Shown: positions 23,616 through 30,565 of the stretch, one piece after another | How positions within the stretch are numbered: the stretch's first letter is position 1 | Layout: the number at the start of each line of letters is the position of its first letter | Source: Planctomycetota bacterium | GTDB taxonomy: Bacteria > Planctomycetota > UBA8742 > UBA2392 | Direction: 5' to 3' | Length of the DNA stretch: 64,000 nt | Assembly (NCBI GenBank): GCA_020849795.1 | Contig: JADZFR010000050.1 | Coordinates: 62,001-126,000, forward strand | Program-made: the position numbers and the translations under genes | The notes under the pieces: generated by a model | Told to the model about the DNA's origin: nothing | Database searches by the model: none | What the model saw: only the letters and a program-made list of their open reading frames with translations

Positions 23616-24537
23616 CACGCTTGCCCTGGCGCTGGACATTCGCCTTCATGCGACCGTCGAATGGTCTGCCGAAAAGGTGCTGCTGAAAGAATTCGACAGC
23701 CCGCTCGACTGGTGGCACAAGGCGGTTGAGCCCAACACCAACTACGGTGGCACGCTGCTTGAGTTCTCGATCGACCACCCCGGCGAGCCGAACCTGCTGG
23801 CAACTTCGTTCGTCAAGGCCATCCTGCGCGCAGGCCCTGAGTATCACCTGCCGAAGGAACTGAAGTGCACGGTCAAGTCCGATATCGTGATTGCCCAGGG
23901 TTTGGGCAGCAGTGCCGCGGCAACCGTAGCGGGTGCAGCGCTGGCCGAGTACTGGCGCAAGGGCGATGCCAACAAAGACGTAGTCTTCCAGGACGCGATT
24001 GAGATTGAAGGCCATCCCGACAACGCCGCAGCAGCCAGCTATGGCGGCTTGCAGGCGGCACTGTTGATCGGCAACGAGACGCGCGCCAGCACCGTGAAGA
24101 TGCACGACAGTATCAAGGTGGCACTGTGCGTGCCGCGCGAGACACTGAAGGAAAACACCAATGCCACGCGCTCGTGGCTGCCGGAACAATTGAAGCGGAA
24201 AGAAGCGGTCAGCAACCAACGCTCTTTGCTGACACTGCTGTGGGGTTTGCGCACGGCCGAACCAAAGGCGATTGCAGCGGGATTTGAAGACCGTTTGCAC
24301 GTGCCGCACCGCAAGTCGATGATCGCGGGCTACGAAGACATCGTGCGCAGCGCGATTGATGCCGGCGCGTTTGGCGCCACCATCAGCGGCGCGGGCGGCA
24401 GCATGATCGCACTCGGAACCGGCGACATGAAACCGATTGCCGAGGCCATGCAGGCGGCCTACAAGCGCCACGGCATGGAGTCGCACGCCCTGACGCCGGC
24501 CATCGACCACAAGGGCCTGATCGTCGAGAAGCTCTAA
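23542..24537 (+). CDS. thrB: Homoserine kinase (GHMP family)
   Basis: A 331-residue enzyme phosphorylating homoserine for threonine synthesis. ISVPASSANLGPGFDTLALAL is the family N-terminus. IAQGLGSSAAATVAGAAL is the GHMP ATP loop, IEIEGHPDNAAAASYGG follows, and FGATISGAGGSMIAL is the third GHMP motif. A GTG start at 23542 has AAGGA at 8 nt; a second GTG at 23566 would also fit the family length. Either lies inside hom, so translation is coupled. The stop TAA overlaps the TAG of the convergent pcm gene (24534-24537), leaving no intergenic space. Confidence 0.93.
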   Translation: MTSSSANKVHISVPASSANLGPGFDTLALALDIRLHATVEWSAEKVLLKEFDSPLDWWHKAVEPNTNYGGTLLEFSIDHPGEPNLLATSFVKAILRAGPEYHLPKELKCTVKSDIVIAQGLGSSAAATVAGAALAEYWRKGDANKDVVFQDAIEIEGHPDNAAAASYGGLQAALLIGNETRASTVKMHDSIKVALCVPRETLKENTNATRSWLPEQLKRKEAVSNQRSLLTLLWGLRTAEPKAIAAGFEDRLHVPHRKSMIAGYEDIVRSAIDAGAFGATISGAGGSMIALGTGDMKPIAEAMQAAYKRHGMESHALTPAIDHKGLIVEKL

Positions 24538-25205
24538 TCGACCCGTCCTGGCCGGACTCCCGGGCTGCTCGGCACCAGTGGCACAAATGCCACCGCCCCC
24601 AACTCCTGCGTGTGCAGGTGGCCATGCCTGTCCTTGGTCACCAGCGTCATCTGCTGTACGCCGCGCGTGCCGACCGGCAGAACCATCCGCCCGCCCGGCG
24701 ACAGCTGGCGCGTCAGCGCTTGCGGAATCGTGATGGCAGCGGCAGCAACCAGGATGCGATCAAACTCGCCGCCGCCGGGCCACCCGGCGTGCGCATCGCC
24801 AATCCGCAGTGTCACGTTATCGATTCCTGCGCGCTGCAAATGGATGGCGGCCTGCCGCGAGAGCTCCGGCACCAGTTCCAGGCTGAACACGTGGCGACAC
24901 AGCATTGCCAGCACCGCTGTCTGGTAGCCGCACCCAGTGCCGGCCTCTAACACCTCGTGCGCGGGCTCAAGGGCGAGTAGTTCGCTCATCCATGCGACAA
25001 TGTAGGGTTGGCTGATCGTCTGCCCGTGCCCGATTGACAAGGGTTGGTCGGCATACGCGTCTCGTGCCAGCGAACCATCGACGAATTCATGCCGCCGCAC
25101 CCGGCGCATGGCGTCAAGCACGCGTAGGTCCGTAACGCCGCGCGCCAAGATTTGCGTCTCGACCATGCGATTGCGCAGCCGTTCGAAGTCCTGCTCGGTT
25201 GGCAT
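24534..25205 (-). CDS. pcm: Protein-L-isoaspartate O-methyltransferase
   Basis: A 223-residue SAM-dependent enzyme starting repair of isoaspartyl residues in damaged proteins. Family marks include MVETQILARGVTDLRVLDAM, HEFVDGSLARDAYADQPLSI, GHGQTISQPYIVAWM, the SAM loop VLEAGTGCGYQTAVLA and a conserved LSPGGRMVLPVG. It begins 4 bp after the stop of the thioredoxin-fold gene at 25210, so it is probably co-transcribed with that gene, pairing protein repair with a redox-fold secreted protein. No clear Shine-Dalgarno site precedes the ATG, consistent with coupling. Confidence 0.93.
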   Translation of the reverse strand: MPTEQDFERLRNRMVETQILARGVTDLRVLDAMRRVRRHEFVDGSLARDAYADQPLSIGHGQTISQPYIVAWMSELLALEPAHEVLEAGTGCGYQTAVLAMLCRHVFSLELVPELSRQAAIHLQRAGIDNVTLRIGDAHAGWPGGGEFDRILVAAAAITIPQALTRQLSPGGRMVLPVGTRGVQQMTLVTKDRHGHLHTQELGAVAFVPLVPSSPGVRPGRVD

Positions 25206-25209
25206 GGTG

Positions 25210-26214
25210 TCACTGCTCAGACCACTCGTTCTTGACGCGTTTGGCCTCAGACTCGGCATGGGTCGCGGCGCCCGTGCCCGCCTGGGACTTTGCAAAGGCG
25301 TTCAGCGAAGTGACGTACTGCTGCCAGTCGCCGAACTCCTGCTTGTCTTTCAGCTTCTGCAGGTCTTCCCACGCCTTGAGTTCTTTCTTTAGGTCCTTGT
25401 CTTTCTTCAGCCGCGCAATCTCGTCTTTCGCGTCATCCGAGAACTTGTGGCCGCGAAAGTCCTCGCGCTGCTTGTCCAGCGTTTTCATCACGAGGTCGTA
25501 GCGCTTGTCCGCGGTCCAGCCTTCGATTCTCTTGATGCGCGCTTCGGCAAAGAATTTCAGACGGTCCGCAACTACCTGCAGGTCAGCCTTTGTGTCGGCA
25601 TCCAGTTCAGTGGCCAGCAGCTTCTCTGCATCAGCCAGCACCTTTCCCCACTCTCGCTTTTGCAGGCCCCGCGCGACCTTTGCGGCGCTTTCGGTCACCG
25701 CGTGCCTGCCCAGGTTGGGGTACACGATCTTTGCCAGCTCGGTGTCAAGGGCGGGTTTGAAGTCGCCCGCGCCGTGGTAGGCGATCTTGCCCTCCACGTC
25801 GATCACGGCCGTCCGGAACCCGCTGTCGCCCTTGTATTTGAAGAACTCGTTCTTGTCGTCGTAGAAGCCGCCCATCGCGATCGGGAACGTAAGCTTGCGG
25901 TCGTGCGCAAGCTGGCGAACTTGCGGCAACTTCTCGAAGTCCAGGCGATGGATCGTGAAGATCATCAACCCGTTCTCGCCGTATTTTTCCCAGTACTTCT
26001 GCAGGTCGGGCAGCTTGGCGGCTGTGCCGTCGCGTGTGTGCCACTCGAAAATGACGATGACGTCGCCCCTGCAATCTTCCAGCGAACGCGCGAACTCGGG
26101 TGGGTTCACCAGCACGCCGCCGGCGCGGAACTTCGGGGCCTCGTCCCCCACCTTCAAGTCGCCCGCGACCAGGGGTGACGCCGCGATCAGCAATGCCATG
26201 AGCAGTACGCGCAT
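25210..26214 (-). CDS. Secreted thioredoxin-fold (redoxin) paralogue lacking the CxxC
   Basis: A 334-residue protein with a signal peptide (MRVLLMALLIAASPLVAGDL) and a GGAGG site. The thioredoxin-like domain (residues about 20-165) keeps the scaffold: DLKVGDEAPKFRAGG, DVIVIFEW and FRTAVIDVEGKIAYHG. The active-site position reads EWHTRDGTAAKLPDL, with no Cys, so disulfide chemistry is not supported. The C-terminal half is a Lys/Asp-rich helical domain with DKDLKKELKAWEDLQKLKD and a closing Asn/Ala/Phe helix shared with the next two genes. It is the most diverged of three tandem paralogues. A chaperone or binding role is possible. Confidence 0.75.
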   Translation of the reverse strand: MRVLLMALLIAASPLVAGDLKVGDEAPKFRAGGVLVNPPEFARSLEDCRGDVIVIFEWHTRDGTAAKLPDLQKYWEKYGENGLMIFTIHRLDFEKLPQVRQLAHDRKLTFPIAMGGFYDDKNEFFKYKGDSGFRTAVIDVEGKIAYHGAGDFKPALDTELAKIVYPNLGRHAVTESAAKVARGLQKREWGKVLADAEKLLATELDADTKADLQVVADRLKFFAEARIKRIEGWTADKRYDLVMKTLDKQREDFRGHKFSDDAKDEIARLKKDKDLKKELKAWEDLQKLKDKQEFGDWQQYVTSLNAFAKSQAGTGAATHAESEAKRVKNEWSEQ

Positions 26215-26306: not shown

Positions 26307-27302
26307 TTAACCTTCGTTGCTTTCCGACTGTTTGCGGGCCTCGTCTGCCGCCGCCGTGCCCTCATATTTCTTTGCAAACGCCACCAGATTCTTCTTCTTT
26401 GTGGCGCTGTCCTTGGCCTTCTCATTGGCGGCCACAGTCTTTTCGTATGCGTCCCAGGCCTTGAGTTCATCCTTGACGGCTTTGTCCTTCTTCAGCGCGT
26501 CCAGGTCTTCTTTGGCTTTTTCAGCGACTTCCATGCCTTTGAATGCTTTGCCCGTAAGCTCTTCAAGAATGCGTACGGCGACGTGGTAGTGGCGGATAGC
26601 CTTGGCATCCTCGACCTGCTTGAGCTTGGCATCAACCAGCGCGTTGACCTTGCCGATGATGTAGTCGGCATCAGCCGCTACTGCCTCATTGTCAACGTTC
26701 TTCTCTTTCTGCCTGATCGCCTCGTCGCGCGCGGCGGCGTAGTCGCCTGCGCTGTATGCGGTGGCGGCCTTTTCGAGGCCGGGCGCAACCTCGTTCTTGC
26801 CCAACCCGAGGTACTTGATCTTGGTGATTTCTTCAGCGACTACGCCCACGTAGCCGTGGTTGCCTTCCCAGATTACCGTGCCGTCTACCCCGATTACGTA
26901 GGCATACGGAATCGTGCCCACGCCAGGGAAGCCGCCCATGCTGCCCTCAATCACCTGCGGGAACGTGAGGCCCTTGCTGTTGTACAGTTTCTGGATCTCG
27001 GCCTCCGTGTGACCCTGGCGCTCGCACATGAACACGTGCAGGCCCTTGCCTTCGTACTTGTTCCAGAGCCCCTGCACCTCCGGCATGCTGGCGATGCACG
27101 GGCCGCACTTGACGCCCCACAGCTTCACGAGAATCACGTCGCCCTTGCAGTCGGCGAGGCTCGTCTTCCCGTCCTTGGGCGGGTTGATGAACTTGGTCGC
27201 GCTGAAATCCGGCGACTCTTTGCCCTGCAAGCTGCTTGTCTTCTGCGCAACCAACGCGCTCGCGAACACACACAACAGTACCGACCAAATCATTGCCCGC
27301 AT
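26307..27302 (-). CDS. Secreted TlpA-like thioredoxin-fold protein with CGPC active site
   Basis: A 331-residue protein with a signal peptide (MRAMIWSVLLCVFASALVAQ). The ATG at 27302 has GGAG 7 nt upstream and is preferred over the ATG two codons earlier. The redoxin domain contains SADFSATKFINPP-like and GDVILVKLWGVKCGPCIASM segments, where CGPC is the classic thioredoxin dithiol. TIPYAYVIGVDGTVIWEGNHG follows. A Lys/Ala-rich helical C-terminal domain (KKDKAVKDELKAWDAYEKTV) is shared with both flanking genes. Its CGPC aligns residue for residue with UGA-GPC in the upstream paralogue. An extracytoplasmic thiol-disulfide or peroxide-reductase role is inferred. Confidence 0.85.
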   Translation of the reverse strand: MRAMIWSVLLCVFASALVAQKTSSLQGKESPDFSATKFINPPKDGKTSLADCKGDVILVKLWGVKCGPCIASMPEVQGLWNKYEGKGLHVFMCERQGHTEAEIQKLYNSKGLTFPQVIEGSMGGFPGVGTIPYAYVIGVDGTVIWEGNHGYVGVVAEEITKIKYLGLGKNEVAPGLEKAATAYSAGDYAAARDEAIRQKEKNVDNEAVAADADYIIGKVNALVDAKLKQVEDAKAIRHYHVAVRILEELTGKAFKGMEVAEKAKEDLDALKKDKAVKDELKAWDAYEKTVAANEKAKDSATKKKNLVAFAKKYEGTAAADEARKQSESNEG

Positions 27303-27341
27303 TGCCATTCTCCCGTTCCCAGTAATCAGGGCGGTTAAATC

Positions 27342-27373
27342 AACCGGCCCGGCCATCAGCGGCCGGGCCGGTT
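27342..27373 (-). terminator. Intrinsic terminator of the selenoprotein candidate
   Basis: A perfect 13-bp stem AACCGGCCCGGCC / GGCCGGGCCGGTT with a 6-nt loop is followed on the minus strand by GATTTAA. Confidence 0.8.
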
Positions 27374-27386
27374 CCCGTTCCGCTGC

Positions 27387-28370
27387 TTATGCAATTGCTT
27401 CGGCCAGCTTTTTCGCCTCGTCGGCGGCGGCTGTGCCCTCGTACTTCTTGTAGAAGTCGTTCAGCGACTTCTTCTTCGCAGCGCTGTCCTTGGCCTTCTC
27501 ATTCGCAGCCAGGGTCTTTTCCAGCGCGTCCCATGCTGACAGTTCTTTCTTTACGTCCTTGTCTTTCTTCAGGTTCTTCAGGTCCTCGTCGGCTTTGTCG
27601 CCCGTTTCGGTGCCCTTGAAACCCTTTGCCAGCTTCTCAAGCGCCTTCACGGTTTCGTGGTAGCGCCGGGTTGTCTGTGTTGCGTCCGCCTTAGCCTGCA
27701 GGTCCTTTGCCACCTGTTCTACGCGACCGATGATGAAATCCGCGTCTGCAACTACAGCCTCGTCGTCAGCCTTCTTCTCTTTCAGCTTGCTCGCCTCATC
27801 ACGGGCCTTGGCGTACTCGCCTGTGCTGAAAAGGGTGGCAGCCTTCTCAAGCCCCGGGGCTACATCCAGCTTGCCCAAGCCCGGGTACTTGATGCGGGCC
27901 AACTGCTTCTCAATCACTGCTTCGTAGCCACTGCGACCTTCCCATACCACCTTGGCGTCCGGGCCGATCACAAACCCGTACGGCAAGCCGCTCCAGCCCT
28001 CGCGATACCCGCCGAAGTCTGAGCCGGTGAACGGGCAGGGCACGTTGCAGCCCTTATCCTTGAGGAACTTCTCCACTTCTTCGCGCGGGTGTCCCTGCGC
28101 ATAGACGATGAAGATATGAAGTCCCTTTTCCTTGTTCTCCGTGTAGAGCCGGTTGAGTGAAGGCAACGCCTTCACGCAGGGCCCTCAGTTGATTCCCCAG
28201 AACTTGATCAACACCACGTCGCCTTTGCACTGCTCAAACGTGGTTGCTTCCGGCGCGTTGATGCAGTCCTTGGCGTCAAAACCTGGCGCGTCTTTGCCCG
28301 AAAGCGTCTGGGCAAACACCGCCGGCGCAAACGCCAACGCAATCAAGAGAGCCAATACGCTCGTCTTCAT
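27387..28370 (-). CDS. Candidate selenoprotein: secreted TlpA-like thioredoxin-fold protein with U-G-P-C active site
   Basis: Read through one in-frame TGA (28185-28187, codon 62), this is a 327-residue protein with a signal peptide (MKTSVLALLIALAFAPAVFA) and a GAGGAG site before the ATG. The sequence before the TGA ends DVVLIKFWGIN and the same frame continues GPCVKALPSL. The paralogue 85 bp downstream reads VILVKLWGVKCGPCIASMPE, so the TGA falls exactly on the first active-site Cys. Both sides are full-length and conserved, including the DKDVKKELSAWDALEKTLAA C-terminal domain. A SECIS-like hairpin starts 9 nt after the TGA. I infer selenocysteine insertion; a Cys-to-stop mutation is the alternative. 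No sel genes or tRNA-Sec lie in this window. Confidence 0.75.
28146..28187 (-). promoter_or_regulatory. Candidate bacterial SECIS element with its UGA
   Basis: Starting 9 nt after the UGA, GUGAAGG pairs perfectly with CCUUCAC around the loop CGUUG (28157-28175). Outside this, GGGCC just after the UGA can pair with GGCUC (28146-28150), leaving an internal loop. The apical loop begins 16 nt after the UGA and has G as its second base. This meets published bacterial SECIS criteria as I recall them: a small loop with an early G, 16-37 nt from the UGA. The layout resembles E. coli fdhF. Confidence 0.65.
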
Positions 28371-28543
28371 AGCCAATCTCCTCACTAGACCCAGCACACT
28401 GCGGTAAATGTGTAGACGCATGACAGTTACGCTTACGGCCAAAAAAGTGCGGACTTGAAGCACCTGTCGGTTCTGACAACGAACACCCCCATGCCCGGTT
28501 GCAAGAACAGTGTACCATTCAGCCCAGCAAGGAGTTACGCCCA

Positions 28544-30565
28544 ATGCCCTTGGTCACGATATCGCAAGCCGGCATGCATTTCGGCGGCCCCGAACTGCTG
28601 AAAGGCGTTTCGCTGGACATCGAGCCCGGCGCCAAGATTGGCTTGATCGGCCAGAACGGTACCGGCAAGTCCACACTCCTGCGCCTGATCACCGGTGAGC
28701 TGGAACCTACCGCCGGGCAGGTGCATCGCCAGAAGAACATCCGGCTTGCATTCCAGACCCAGGAGTTGAAGGCGCCGCCCGGCGCAACCGCGTGGTCTGA
28801 AATGCGCGCACTGTTCGCCGCAGACGTACAGCGTGAGGAAAGACTGCGAACACTAGAGGAACGCCTGGCCAACGGCGAGGACGTGCTTGCCGACTACGAG
28901 CGCCTTCAGCATGAGCACGACTTCGCAGGCGGCTATGAAGTTGACCGCCGCATTGAGCAGGTGCTGACCGGGCTTGGCCTGCCGCAAGCTGCATGGCAGC
29001 AGCCGATCACGACCTTCAGCGGCGGTGAGCGCAACATCATCGCGCTGGCGCGCATCGTGCTGCAGGAACCGGAGCTGATGTTGCTGGATGAGCCCAGCAA
29101 CCACCTCGACATGGAGGGCATTGAGTGGTTTATCCAGTTTCTGCGCCGCTCGCGGGCCGCCGTCGTCATGGTTAGCCACAACCGCCACTTGCTTGACGCC
29201 ACCGTCAACGAAATCTGGGAGTTGCACAGCCGCAAGGTCAAGCGGTGGGCCGGTGGTTACAGCGACTTTGCGCGCCAGAAAGAAGAGGCACTGGCATTAC
29301 AGGAACGCCAGTACAAGGCCCAGCAGCGCTGGATCAAGCGCATCGAGTTCCAGGCGCGCCGGTTGCTGGACATGGCGCGAGCCTATGACGACCCCGGCCA
29401 GGCCAAGCGCGCAAAGGCCATGTTGATGCGCGTTGAGCAGGTCGAGAAGATCGACGCGCCGGATCGCAGCGAGAACCGTTTTCACGCAAGCCTCGGCGAT
29501 GGGCGCTTCAAGGGGCACCTTGCACTCGAGATTGAAGGGCTGACGGTCAATGTCTCTGGTGTCGGAAACCAGGAGTCGCGAAACGACACACGCGCTGATT
29601 CCCGAATCCTGCTCGACAACGCTTCACTCACCATTGAGTACGGACAGCGCGTCGCGCTGGTCGGCCCCAATGGCAGCGGCAAGACCACTCTGTTCAACGC
29701 GATTCTGCATCACGCCAACTGGGAACACCCGGATCTGGATGTACAGGAAGGCCCGTTCCATATCACGGGCCGACTACGCACGGGAAAAGCCGCCAAGATC
29801 GGCGACTATTCTCAGATTCACCAGCATGCGCTGGATGAGCATGCGTCATTGATCGAATGGTTCTTGAAAGTCAGCGGCCTCGACTATCAGCCGGCCACGC
29901 TGATGCTGCATCGCTTTCTGTTCAACCGCGATGACCTGAACCGGCAGATCGGCACGCTAAGCGGCGGCGAGAAGAGCCGGCTGCAACTCGCGCGGCTTGT
30001 GCATGAACAGGTGAACTTCCTGATGCTGGATGAGCCCACGAACCACCTGGACATCCAGGCGTGCGAGCAGCTTGAGGAAATGCTGGATGAGTTCGAGGGC
30101 ACCCTGCTGGTCATCAGCCACGACCGCTACTTTCTCGACAAGCTGGTGAACCGGGTCGTTGAGCTGAAAGACCGGCAGCTTGAGCCCTTCAAGGGCACGT
30201 TCGCCGAGTGGTGGCAGGAAAAGCACCAGCAGGCGCAGCAGGGGCCAAAGGGCACGCTGCAACTTCACAGCCAGAAAAGCGCCGCCGACCGCCGCAGCGA
30301 CGCAAAGCAGCAGCGCGAAGACCAGAAGGCCAAGCAGCGGGAACAGCATAGGCTCAAGGCCGAGATCCGGGCGCTGGAAGCACGCATCGAGAAGCTGGAG
30401 TCGAAGCAGAAAGAGCTGGAAGATCAACTCGCCACGGCATTCAGTGCCGACGGCACAGCGTCGGCCGAAGAAGCCATGAAACTGAACACGGCTTTCGAAG
30501 CCGTCAAACACCAAATCGTCGAAGCCTACAGCAAGTGGGAAGAACTGGCGGCCGGCGTGGAATAA
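28544..30565 (+). CDS. ABC-F family ATPase (Uup/YheS-like)
   Basis: A 673-residue cytoplasmic protein with two ABC cassettes and no membrane segments. Domain 1 has GQNGTGKSTLL, FSGGERNIIALARI and LMLLDEPSNHLDMEGIEWF. Domain 2 has GPNGSGKTTLF, LSGGEKSRLQLARL and LMLDEPTNHLDIQACEQLEE. An inter-domain linker of about 80 residues (KEEALALQERQYKAQQRWIK) fits the ABC-F P-site tRNA interaction motif. The C-terminus (about 120 residues) is a charged coiled coil as in Uup. ABC-F proteins act on the ribosome as translation factors or protect it from antibiotics; which applies here is not visible. AAGGAG precedes the ATG. It is divergent from the selenoprotein gene. Confidence 0.93.
   Translation: MPLVTISQAGMHFGGPELLKGVSLDIEPGAKIGLIGQNGTGKSTLLRLITGELEPTAGQVHRQKNIRLAFQTQELKAPPGATAWSEMRALFAADVQREERLRTLEERLANGEDVLADYERLQHEHDFAGGYEVDRRIEQVLTGLGLPQAAWQQPITTFSGGERNIIALARIVLQEPELMLLDEPSNHLDMEGIEWFIQFLRRSRAAVVMVSHNRHLLDATVNEIWELHSRKVKRWAGGYSDFARQKEEALALQERQYKAQQRWIKRIEFQARRLLDMARAYDDPGQAKRAKAMLMRVEQVEKIDAPDRSENRFHASLGDGRFKGHLALEIEGLTVNVSGVGNQESRNDTRADSRILLDNASLTIEYGQRVALVGPNGSGKTTLFNAILHHANWEHPDLDVQEGPFHITGRLRTGKAAKIGDYSQIHQHALDEHASLIEWFLKVSGLDYQPATLMLHRFLFNRDDLNRQIGTLSGGEKSRLQLARLVHEQVNFLMLDEPTNHLDIQACEQLEEMLDEFEGTLLVISHDRYFLDKLVNRVVELKDRQLEPFKGTFAEWWQEKHQQAQQGPKGTLQLHSQKSAADRRSDAKQQREDQKAKQREQHRLKAEIRALEARIEKLESKQKELEDQLATAFSADGTASAEEAMKLNTAFEAVKHQIVEAYSKWEELAAGVE

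Follow-up and report, generated by a model that had tools for sequence, protein, structure and literature searches.

Selenoproteins are usually rare among many cysteine (Cys) homologues. Planctomycetes were previously known as selenoprotein makers (PMC4807772), a thiol-disulfide isomerase-like selenoprotein type goes back to the Sargasso Sea survey (PMC1088965), and the tabulated entries of a selenoprotein catalogue include TlpA-like (cd02966), redoxin (PF08534) and Prx-like (PF00578) selenoproteins, all of the UxxC type (PMC13188914). Here we describe a predicted TlpA/ResA-like gene from a 64,000-nucleotide stretch of Planctomycetota DNA (hereafter the window), in which an apparent stop codon is almost certainly read as selenocysteine (Sec). 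The gene belongs to an unusually large selenium-using family in one uncultured Planctomycetota group, and is accompanied by tandem copies with Cys, and with neither Cys nor Sec, at the active site.

Results

The gene (27387-28370, minus strand) translates into a read-through product of 327 aa with a single in-frame TGA, codon 62 (28185-28187, minus strand), which is kept in 16/16 family genomes. The minus-strand reading runs MKTSVLALLIALAFAPAVFAQ...VVLIKFWGIN-UGA-GPCVKALPSLNRLY... and on to a TAA, so that, as the initial annotation had stated, a UGA stands in a CGPC-type motif and the same frame continues for 265 residues behind it; the adjoining paralogue (26307-27302, minus strand) indeed reads WGVKCGPC at the aligned place. 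An AGGAG ribosome-binding site (28378-28382, minus strand) is located 7 nt upstream of the ATG, and the first 21 residues (28308-28370, minus strand) resemble a Sec-type signal peptide (MKTSVLALLIALAFAPAVFA-Q), with cleavage predicted near VFA-Q from the sequence pattern and a low-confidence model segment at residues 1-19. Both elements had been noted before, whereas the terminator noted along with them was not recovered, as the G+C-rich hairpin behind the gene (about 27340-27370) has no T-run and no intrinsic terminator was found between the Sec and Cys copies. The Sec had moreover been assigned to a "resolving-type" Cys position, but it stands for the first Cys of CxxC, which is the attacking residue. 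Translation, homologues and conservation make it very probable that codon 62 is read as Sec (W-G-I-N-U-G-P-C) and that the gene encodes a secreted selenoprotein.

A TlpA/ResA-like thioredoxin domain covers residues about 24-165 (27876-28301, minus strand; cis-Pro P130) and was assigned from PF08534/PF00578 and ResA structures. The protein lies above the Pfam gathering scores of PF08534 (41.7 bits, threshold 26.6) and PF00578 (39.5 bits, threshold 26), while the ResA-type, TlpA and DsbE models were matched only below their cut-offs. AlphaFold2 modelled the full product with a mean pLDDT of 88.6 as a thioredoxin fold (residues 24-165) followed by eight helices, and its closest PDB matches are ResA (E 8.5e-9) and DsbE-type reductases. 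These structural relatives, together with a DsbD-type protein encoded in the genome (DsbD_TM, C1:45639-46286), speak for a disulfide reductase. A selenoprotein that works as an oxidase, an isomerase or a peroxidase-like enzyme is possible, though distinctly less probable: CGPC-type motifs are typical of reductases, yet in the envelope it is the partners that set the redox direction, and PF00578 and PF08534 also include peroxiredoxins, whose TxxC/TxxU motif is however absent here, the motif being UxxC. By analogy, we rather favour a disulfide reductase that works in the periplasm and draws electrons from a DsbD-type protein, with the DsbD_TM protein as a plausible donor.

The C-terminal part of the protein (residues 172-324; 27399-27857, minus strand) forms an all-helical domain that reached a pLDDT of 92.9 in AlphaFold2 when folded alone and is homologous to the C-terminal half of NF041382 (VPGUxxT type 1; E 1.9e-17). 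The extra Lys-rich helical domain of the initial annotation is thus present, but it is not unique, being common to the known VPGUxxT type 1 family, and the idea of a wholly new domain was dropped because of this match. In the PDB, the domain resembled only TPR-like structures, and weakly so (BamD, YbgF; E 0.2 or worse). It occurs in 10 proteins of the genome, 0/10 of which pass the NF041382 cut-off. These include a secreted Cys protein (L224; G000:C18, minus strand) with a different thioredoxin-like domain and the motif RRDCQGCET, which was missed with the Sec protein as query.

Directly behind the UGA, a bacterial SECIS hairpin that the initial annotation does not mention, GTGAAGGC-GTT-GCCTTCAC (28157-28175, minus strand), was recognised by its fold, the bSECIS model and a synonymous-recoding control; in the fold, it starts 10 nt after the UGA and places the loop G at +18. 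Since Rfam at gathering score returned one tRNA and nothing else from the whole window, the SECIS test relies on our own implementation of the published bSECIS model, which demands a loop of 3-9 nt, a stem of >=4 bp, a G in the first two loop positions, a distance of 16-37 nt from the UGA and an energy <= -7.5 (PMC13188914). With an 8-bp stem, a GTT loop, 17 nt spacing and -16.8 kcal/mol, the window gene agrees with this model, and this energy is the best value anywhere in the gene, codons 58-62 being tied because the same hairpin is seen from each. Across the family, 63/69 Sec genes pass the model at the -7.5 threshold; as the other 6/69 fail it, not every Sec member has a recognised SECIS. 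Synonymous recoding shifted the mean constrained energy of the 69 Sec genes from -11.8 to -3.3, in contrast to 24 non-Sec control sites (Cys and redox-dead copies, plus a few unrelated Cys positions caught by the search pattern), where native and recoded values did not differ (-4.2 vs -4.3). In the AGTT-loop subclass, 20 cells showed substitutions in both paired bases without loss of pairing, compared with 7.5 +/- 1.9 in shuffles, and the covariation score was 0.467 vs 0.137, with 0/500 shuffles as high and all slid registers lower. The stems of the two largest SECIS subclasses are offset by one base, while G-U-U is kept at +18 to +20.

Two deviating forms were observed among the Sec members. 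A WKIH-U-EPC subfamily (L154, L155, L169, L170, L171), usually found beside a UGPC or USPC copy, has its best model hairpin at +30 rather than at +16 to +18, and carries Sec in a CEPC-like motif, as in ResA. The Sec copy of L153 reads UGPS and is the sole Sec member without the resolving Cys, with its SECIS hairpin intact.

The hairpin also bears on a reading in which two products are made, namely a secreted peptide of 61 aa terminated by the UGA and an independent protein of 262 aa initiated at a GTG at 28175. Such a GTG behind the motif does open a 262-aa frame, and termination is expected at low selenium. Nevertheless, the second product would be devoid of the signal peptide, the first thioredoxin strands and the attacking residue, the GTG lies within the SECIS stem and is replaced by ATG, CTG, ATC or TGG in paralogues, and the two halves are conserved together as a single domain, which renders separate products very improbable in comparison with a single selenoprotein read through the UGA.

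Orthologues with one TGA were found in all 16 family genomes at identities from 98% down to about 45%, and the same TGA recurs in independent assemblies. Behind the UGA, dN and dS amount to 0.011 and 0.451 against the closest relative and to 0.148 and 1.15 against the next one, giving dN/dS ratios of roughly 0.02-0.13 for these two pairs, indicating strong purifying selection on a downstream part that, as had been anticipated, is not degraded in homologues. A homologue is present in 17/17 genomes of the order and, at E <= 1e-20, in 86/392 genomes of a Planctomycetota sample, where most homologues among the matches listed contain one TGA. The anticipated U/C exchange at codon 62 was seen as well: the aligned site in 118 script-read homologues is U in 83, C in 24 and neither in 11, a set that was chosen by similarity to the Sec member and filtered for the motif, so that the statement free of this filter is that homologues contain at most a single internal TGA. 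The resolving Cys is present in 82/83 Sec genes. A TAA that had been flagged as internal in the relative G311 is, on reading, simply where that Cys homologue normally ends. The only in-frame stop inside homologues is TGA, and only at the active-site column, which excludes chance.

These data leave hardly any room for a Cys gene, whether decaying or normal, in which the TGA is a nonsense mutation or reflects an error of assembly. Such an origin would take little, as the TGA is one base from TGC/TGT and a Cys copy adjoins, but it is already refuted by conservation, that is, by the recurrence of the same TGA in independent assemblies of the 16 genomes, by the low downstream dN/dS, and by homologues with no other internal stop and a SECIS behind the codon.

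Sec decoding presupposes a dedicated machinery, all of which was found in the same genome, a 94% complete metagenome assembly (3.97 Mb, 63 contigs) with Planctomycetota MAGs as close relatives. selA (C7:13448-14800, 537 bits) is followed about 0.7 kb downstream by a tRNA-Sec with anticodon TCA (C7:15541-15629, 69 bits), which reads UGA as tRNA-Sec(UCA); selB lies at C46:113643-115511 (334 bits) and selD at C3:96412-97332 (400 bits), the latter with its own in-frame TGA in HGAGUGCK, the classical Sec site of SelD. An ordinary amino acid at TGA genome-wide, or a natural suppressor, might account for the in-frame TGA in eight homologues of the genome, yet it can be dismissed, because 16/40 long ORFs of the window (a greedy, uncurated ORF set) and the third tandem copy itself end in TGA, TGA within homologues is confined to the active site, and the genome encodes the complete Sec pathway, tRNA-Sec included. 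With machinery, downstream conservation and U/C exchange all in place, the secreted TlpA-like selenoprotein proposed in the initial annotation is supported.

The same genome contains 13 homologues of the gene, of which eight carry a single TGA, in UGPC (seven) or UGHC (one), and hence eight TlpA-like selenoproteins. A scan with the pattern TGAGGNCCNTGY returned 24 places, compared with 7 for the reversed pattern; eight of the 24 have a long frame before and after them, of which seven are TlpA-like and one is thioredoxin-like. The latter, FTAEW-U-GPC at C36:4520 (L188), has long open frames on both sides and falls outside the TlpA-like family. Counting SelD, the genome encodes at least 10 selenoproteins, a lower bound derived from the homologue search, the UGPC pattern scan and SelD. 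Three TlpA-like selenoprotein genes are clustered within 13 kb on one contig (L132; G000:C25:28000-46000), where they read UGHC, UGPC and UGPC near 3.3, 10.1 and 15.1 kb of the locus, respectively.

In the window, the Sec gene is followed on the minus strand by the Cys paralogue (26307-27302), which shows no SECIS excess, by a third copy lacking both active-site Cys residues (EWHTRDGTA) as well as the cis-Pro (25210-26214), and by pcm (24534-25205; PF01135), a protein-L-isoaspartate O-methyltransferase gene and, by synteny, the last gene of the conserved array. On the other side lies a divergent, conserved neighbour on the plus strand (28544-30565), an ORF with two ATP-binding cassettes, for which it was putatively named ABC-F-like. 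Most array contigs show the succession ABC-F-like (divergent), Sec, Cys, redox-dead and pcm; the Cys copy is absent from some genomes, and some array contigs lack or end before other members. In the redox-dead copies, both Cys residues are gone and the cis-Pro is changed to F or Y; the copy in the window retains EWHxRDGT. The ten genes of this kind group in a single conserved clade, suggestive of a role other than catalysis.

In a tree computed with IQ-TREE (LG+G4, site column removed), the Cys clade (8 genes, 99% SH-aLRT) and the DGT clade (10 genes, 100% SH-aLRT) are nested in a larger Sec-dominated group, and the active-site state changed at least 8-10 times. The Cys-copy clade likely arose in the direction Sec to Cys, in a tree whose root is uncertain and some of whose deep branches are long. 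A second kind of tandem pair of Sec and non-Sec genes was observed at L131, L141 and L145, where a UGPC or UIPC copy stands beside a WGxNCTGS or WGINCTTS copy in which one Cys is kept and the resolving Cys is lost.

No known TlpA or ResA client gene lies beside the array, pcm and the ABC-F-like gene point to no substrate, no genes for cytochrome c maturation or copper-site assembly were recognised beside the array, and a link to a defence system was not indicated by any PADLOC match.

Discussion

On sequence grounds, Sec decoding, the export signal, the fold and the three active-site states are well supported, while the catalytic direction, the electron donor, the partner and the roles of the copies are what we infer on the basis of the chemistry common to thioredoxins and of the TlpA/ResA fold. 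SelB and tRNA-Sec would decode UGA 62, aided by the SECIS hairpin directly behind it, and Sec62 would thereby replace the attacking Cys of the CxxC motif (UGPC) in the TlpA/ResA-like domain. Given the signal peptide and export, the protein would act outside the cytoplasm, most likely as a thiol-disulfide oxidoreductase: Sec62 would attack the disulfide of a partner, forming a mixed selenenylsulfide that Cys65 would then resolve, after which the protein would be reduced again by a membrane reductase of the DsbD type. Partner binding is probably the task of the helical C-terminal domain. The Cys copy might perform the same chemistry without selenium, whereas the third copy could only bind, as it has no Cys and no cis-Pro.

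Going further, we tentatively speculate that in this group a large family of secreted thioredoxins uses Sec as its standard catalytic residue, and that the tandem series may act as a working set. In it, a rapid selenium enzyme would be joined by a copy that stands in for it without selenium and by a third one that binds or competes but does not catalyse, and the supply of selenium might switch between them. Each of the three would carry a shared partner-binding helical domain that is also joined to the VPGUxxT Sec thioredoxin. Irrespective of this idea, most homologues here carry Sec, within a family picked by similarity to a Sec member, and eight of them do so in one genome. The ordered Sec, Cys and redox-dead copies offer a natural series on why Sec stays at the attacking position, and on the fate of the SECIS and of the protein once Sec is lost. 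From a practical point of view, gene callers in standard use would either cut these genes short or place their start behind the UGA.

Among described systems, the TlpA-like selenoproteins (cd02966; PMC1088965, PMC13188914 Table 1) share with the window protein a TlpA-like thioredoxin domain and Sec as the first residue of CxxC; the catalogue entry, in the part available, describes the thioredoxin domain and leaves a fused helical domain, a lineage expansion and a tandem series unmentioned (PMC13188914). The redoxin selenoprotein (PF08534, UxxC) and the Prx-like oxidoreductase (PF00578, UxxC/UxxU) are alike in that the window protein passes both cut-offs and is UxxC, a comparison made with the descriptions in that catalogue (PMC13188914). 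As TlpA and redoxin UxxC selenoproteins are thus already listed in its tabulated part (PMC13188914), the initial claim of an undescribed selenoprotein holds for the architecture only. We found no description in the open-access literature of the two-domain form, the expansion or the Sec/Cys/redox-dead series.

ResA of Bacillus, the closest PDB match, resembles the window protein in fold and export, but is a single-domain Cys protein, whereas the window protein has the extra C-terminal domain and scores 53.3 bits with the ResA model NF002854, below its cut-off of 170. VPGUxxT type 1 (NF041382) is alike in its C-terminal 150 residues (E 1.9e-17) and unlike in the rest: the window protein scores 63.6 bits against a cut-off of 350, its thioredoxin domain is unmatched and its motif is WGINUGPC instead of VPGUxxT. 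The common C-terminal domain hence links two selenoprotein types that were previously listed apart, TlpA-like and VPGUxxT. What sets the present family apart is the helical C-terminal domain that it has in common with NF041382, its expansion throughout the lineage, and the series of Sec, Cys and redox-dead copies.
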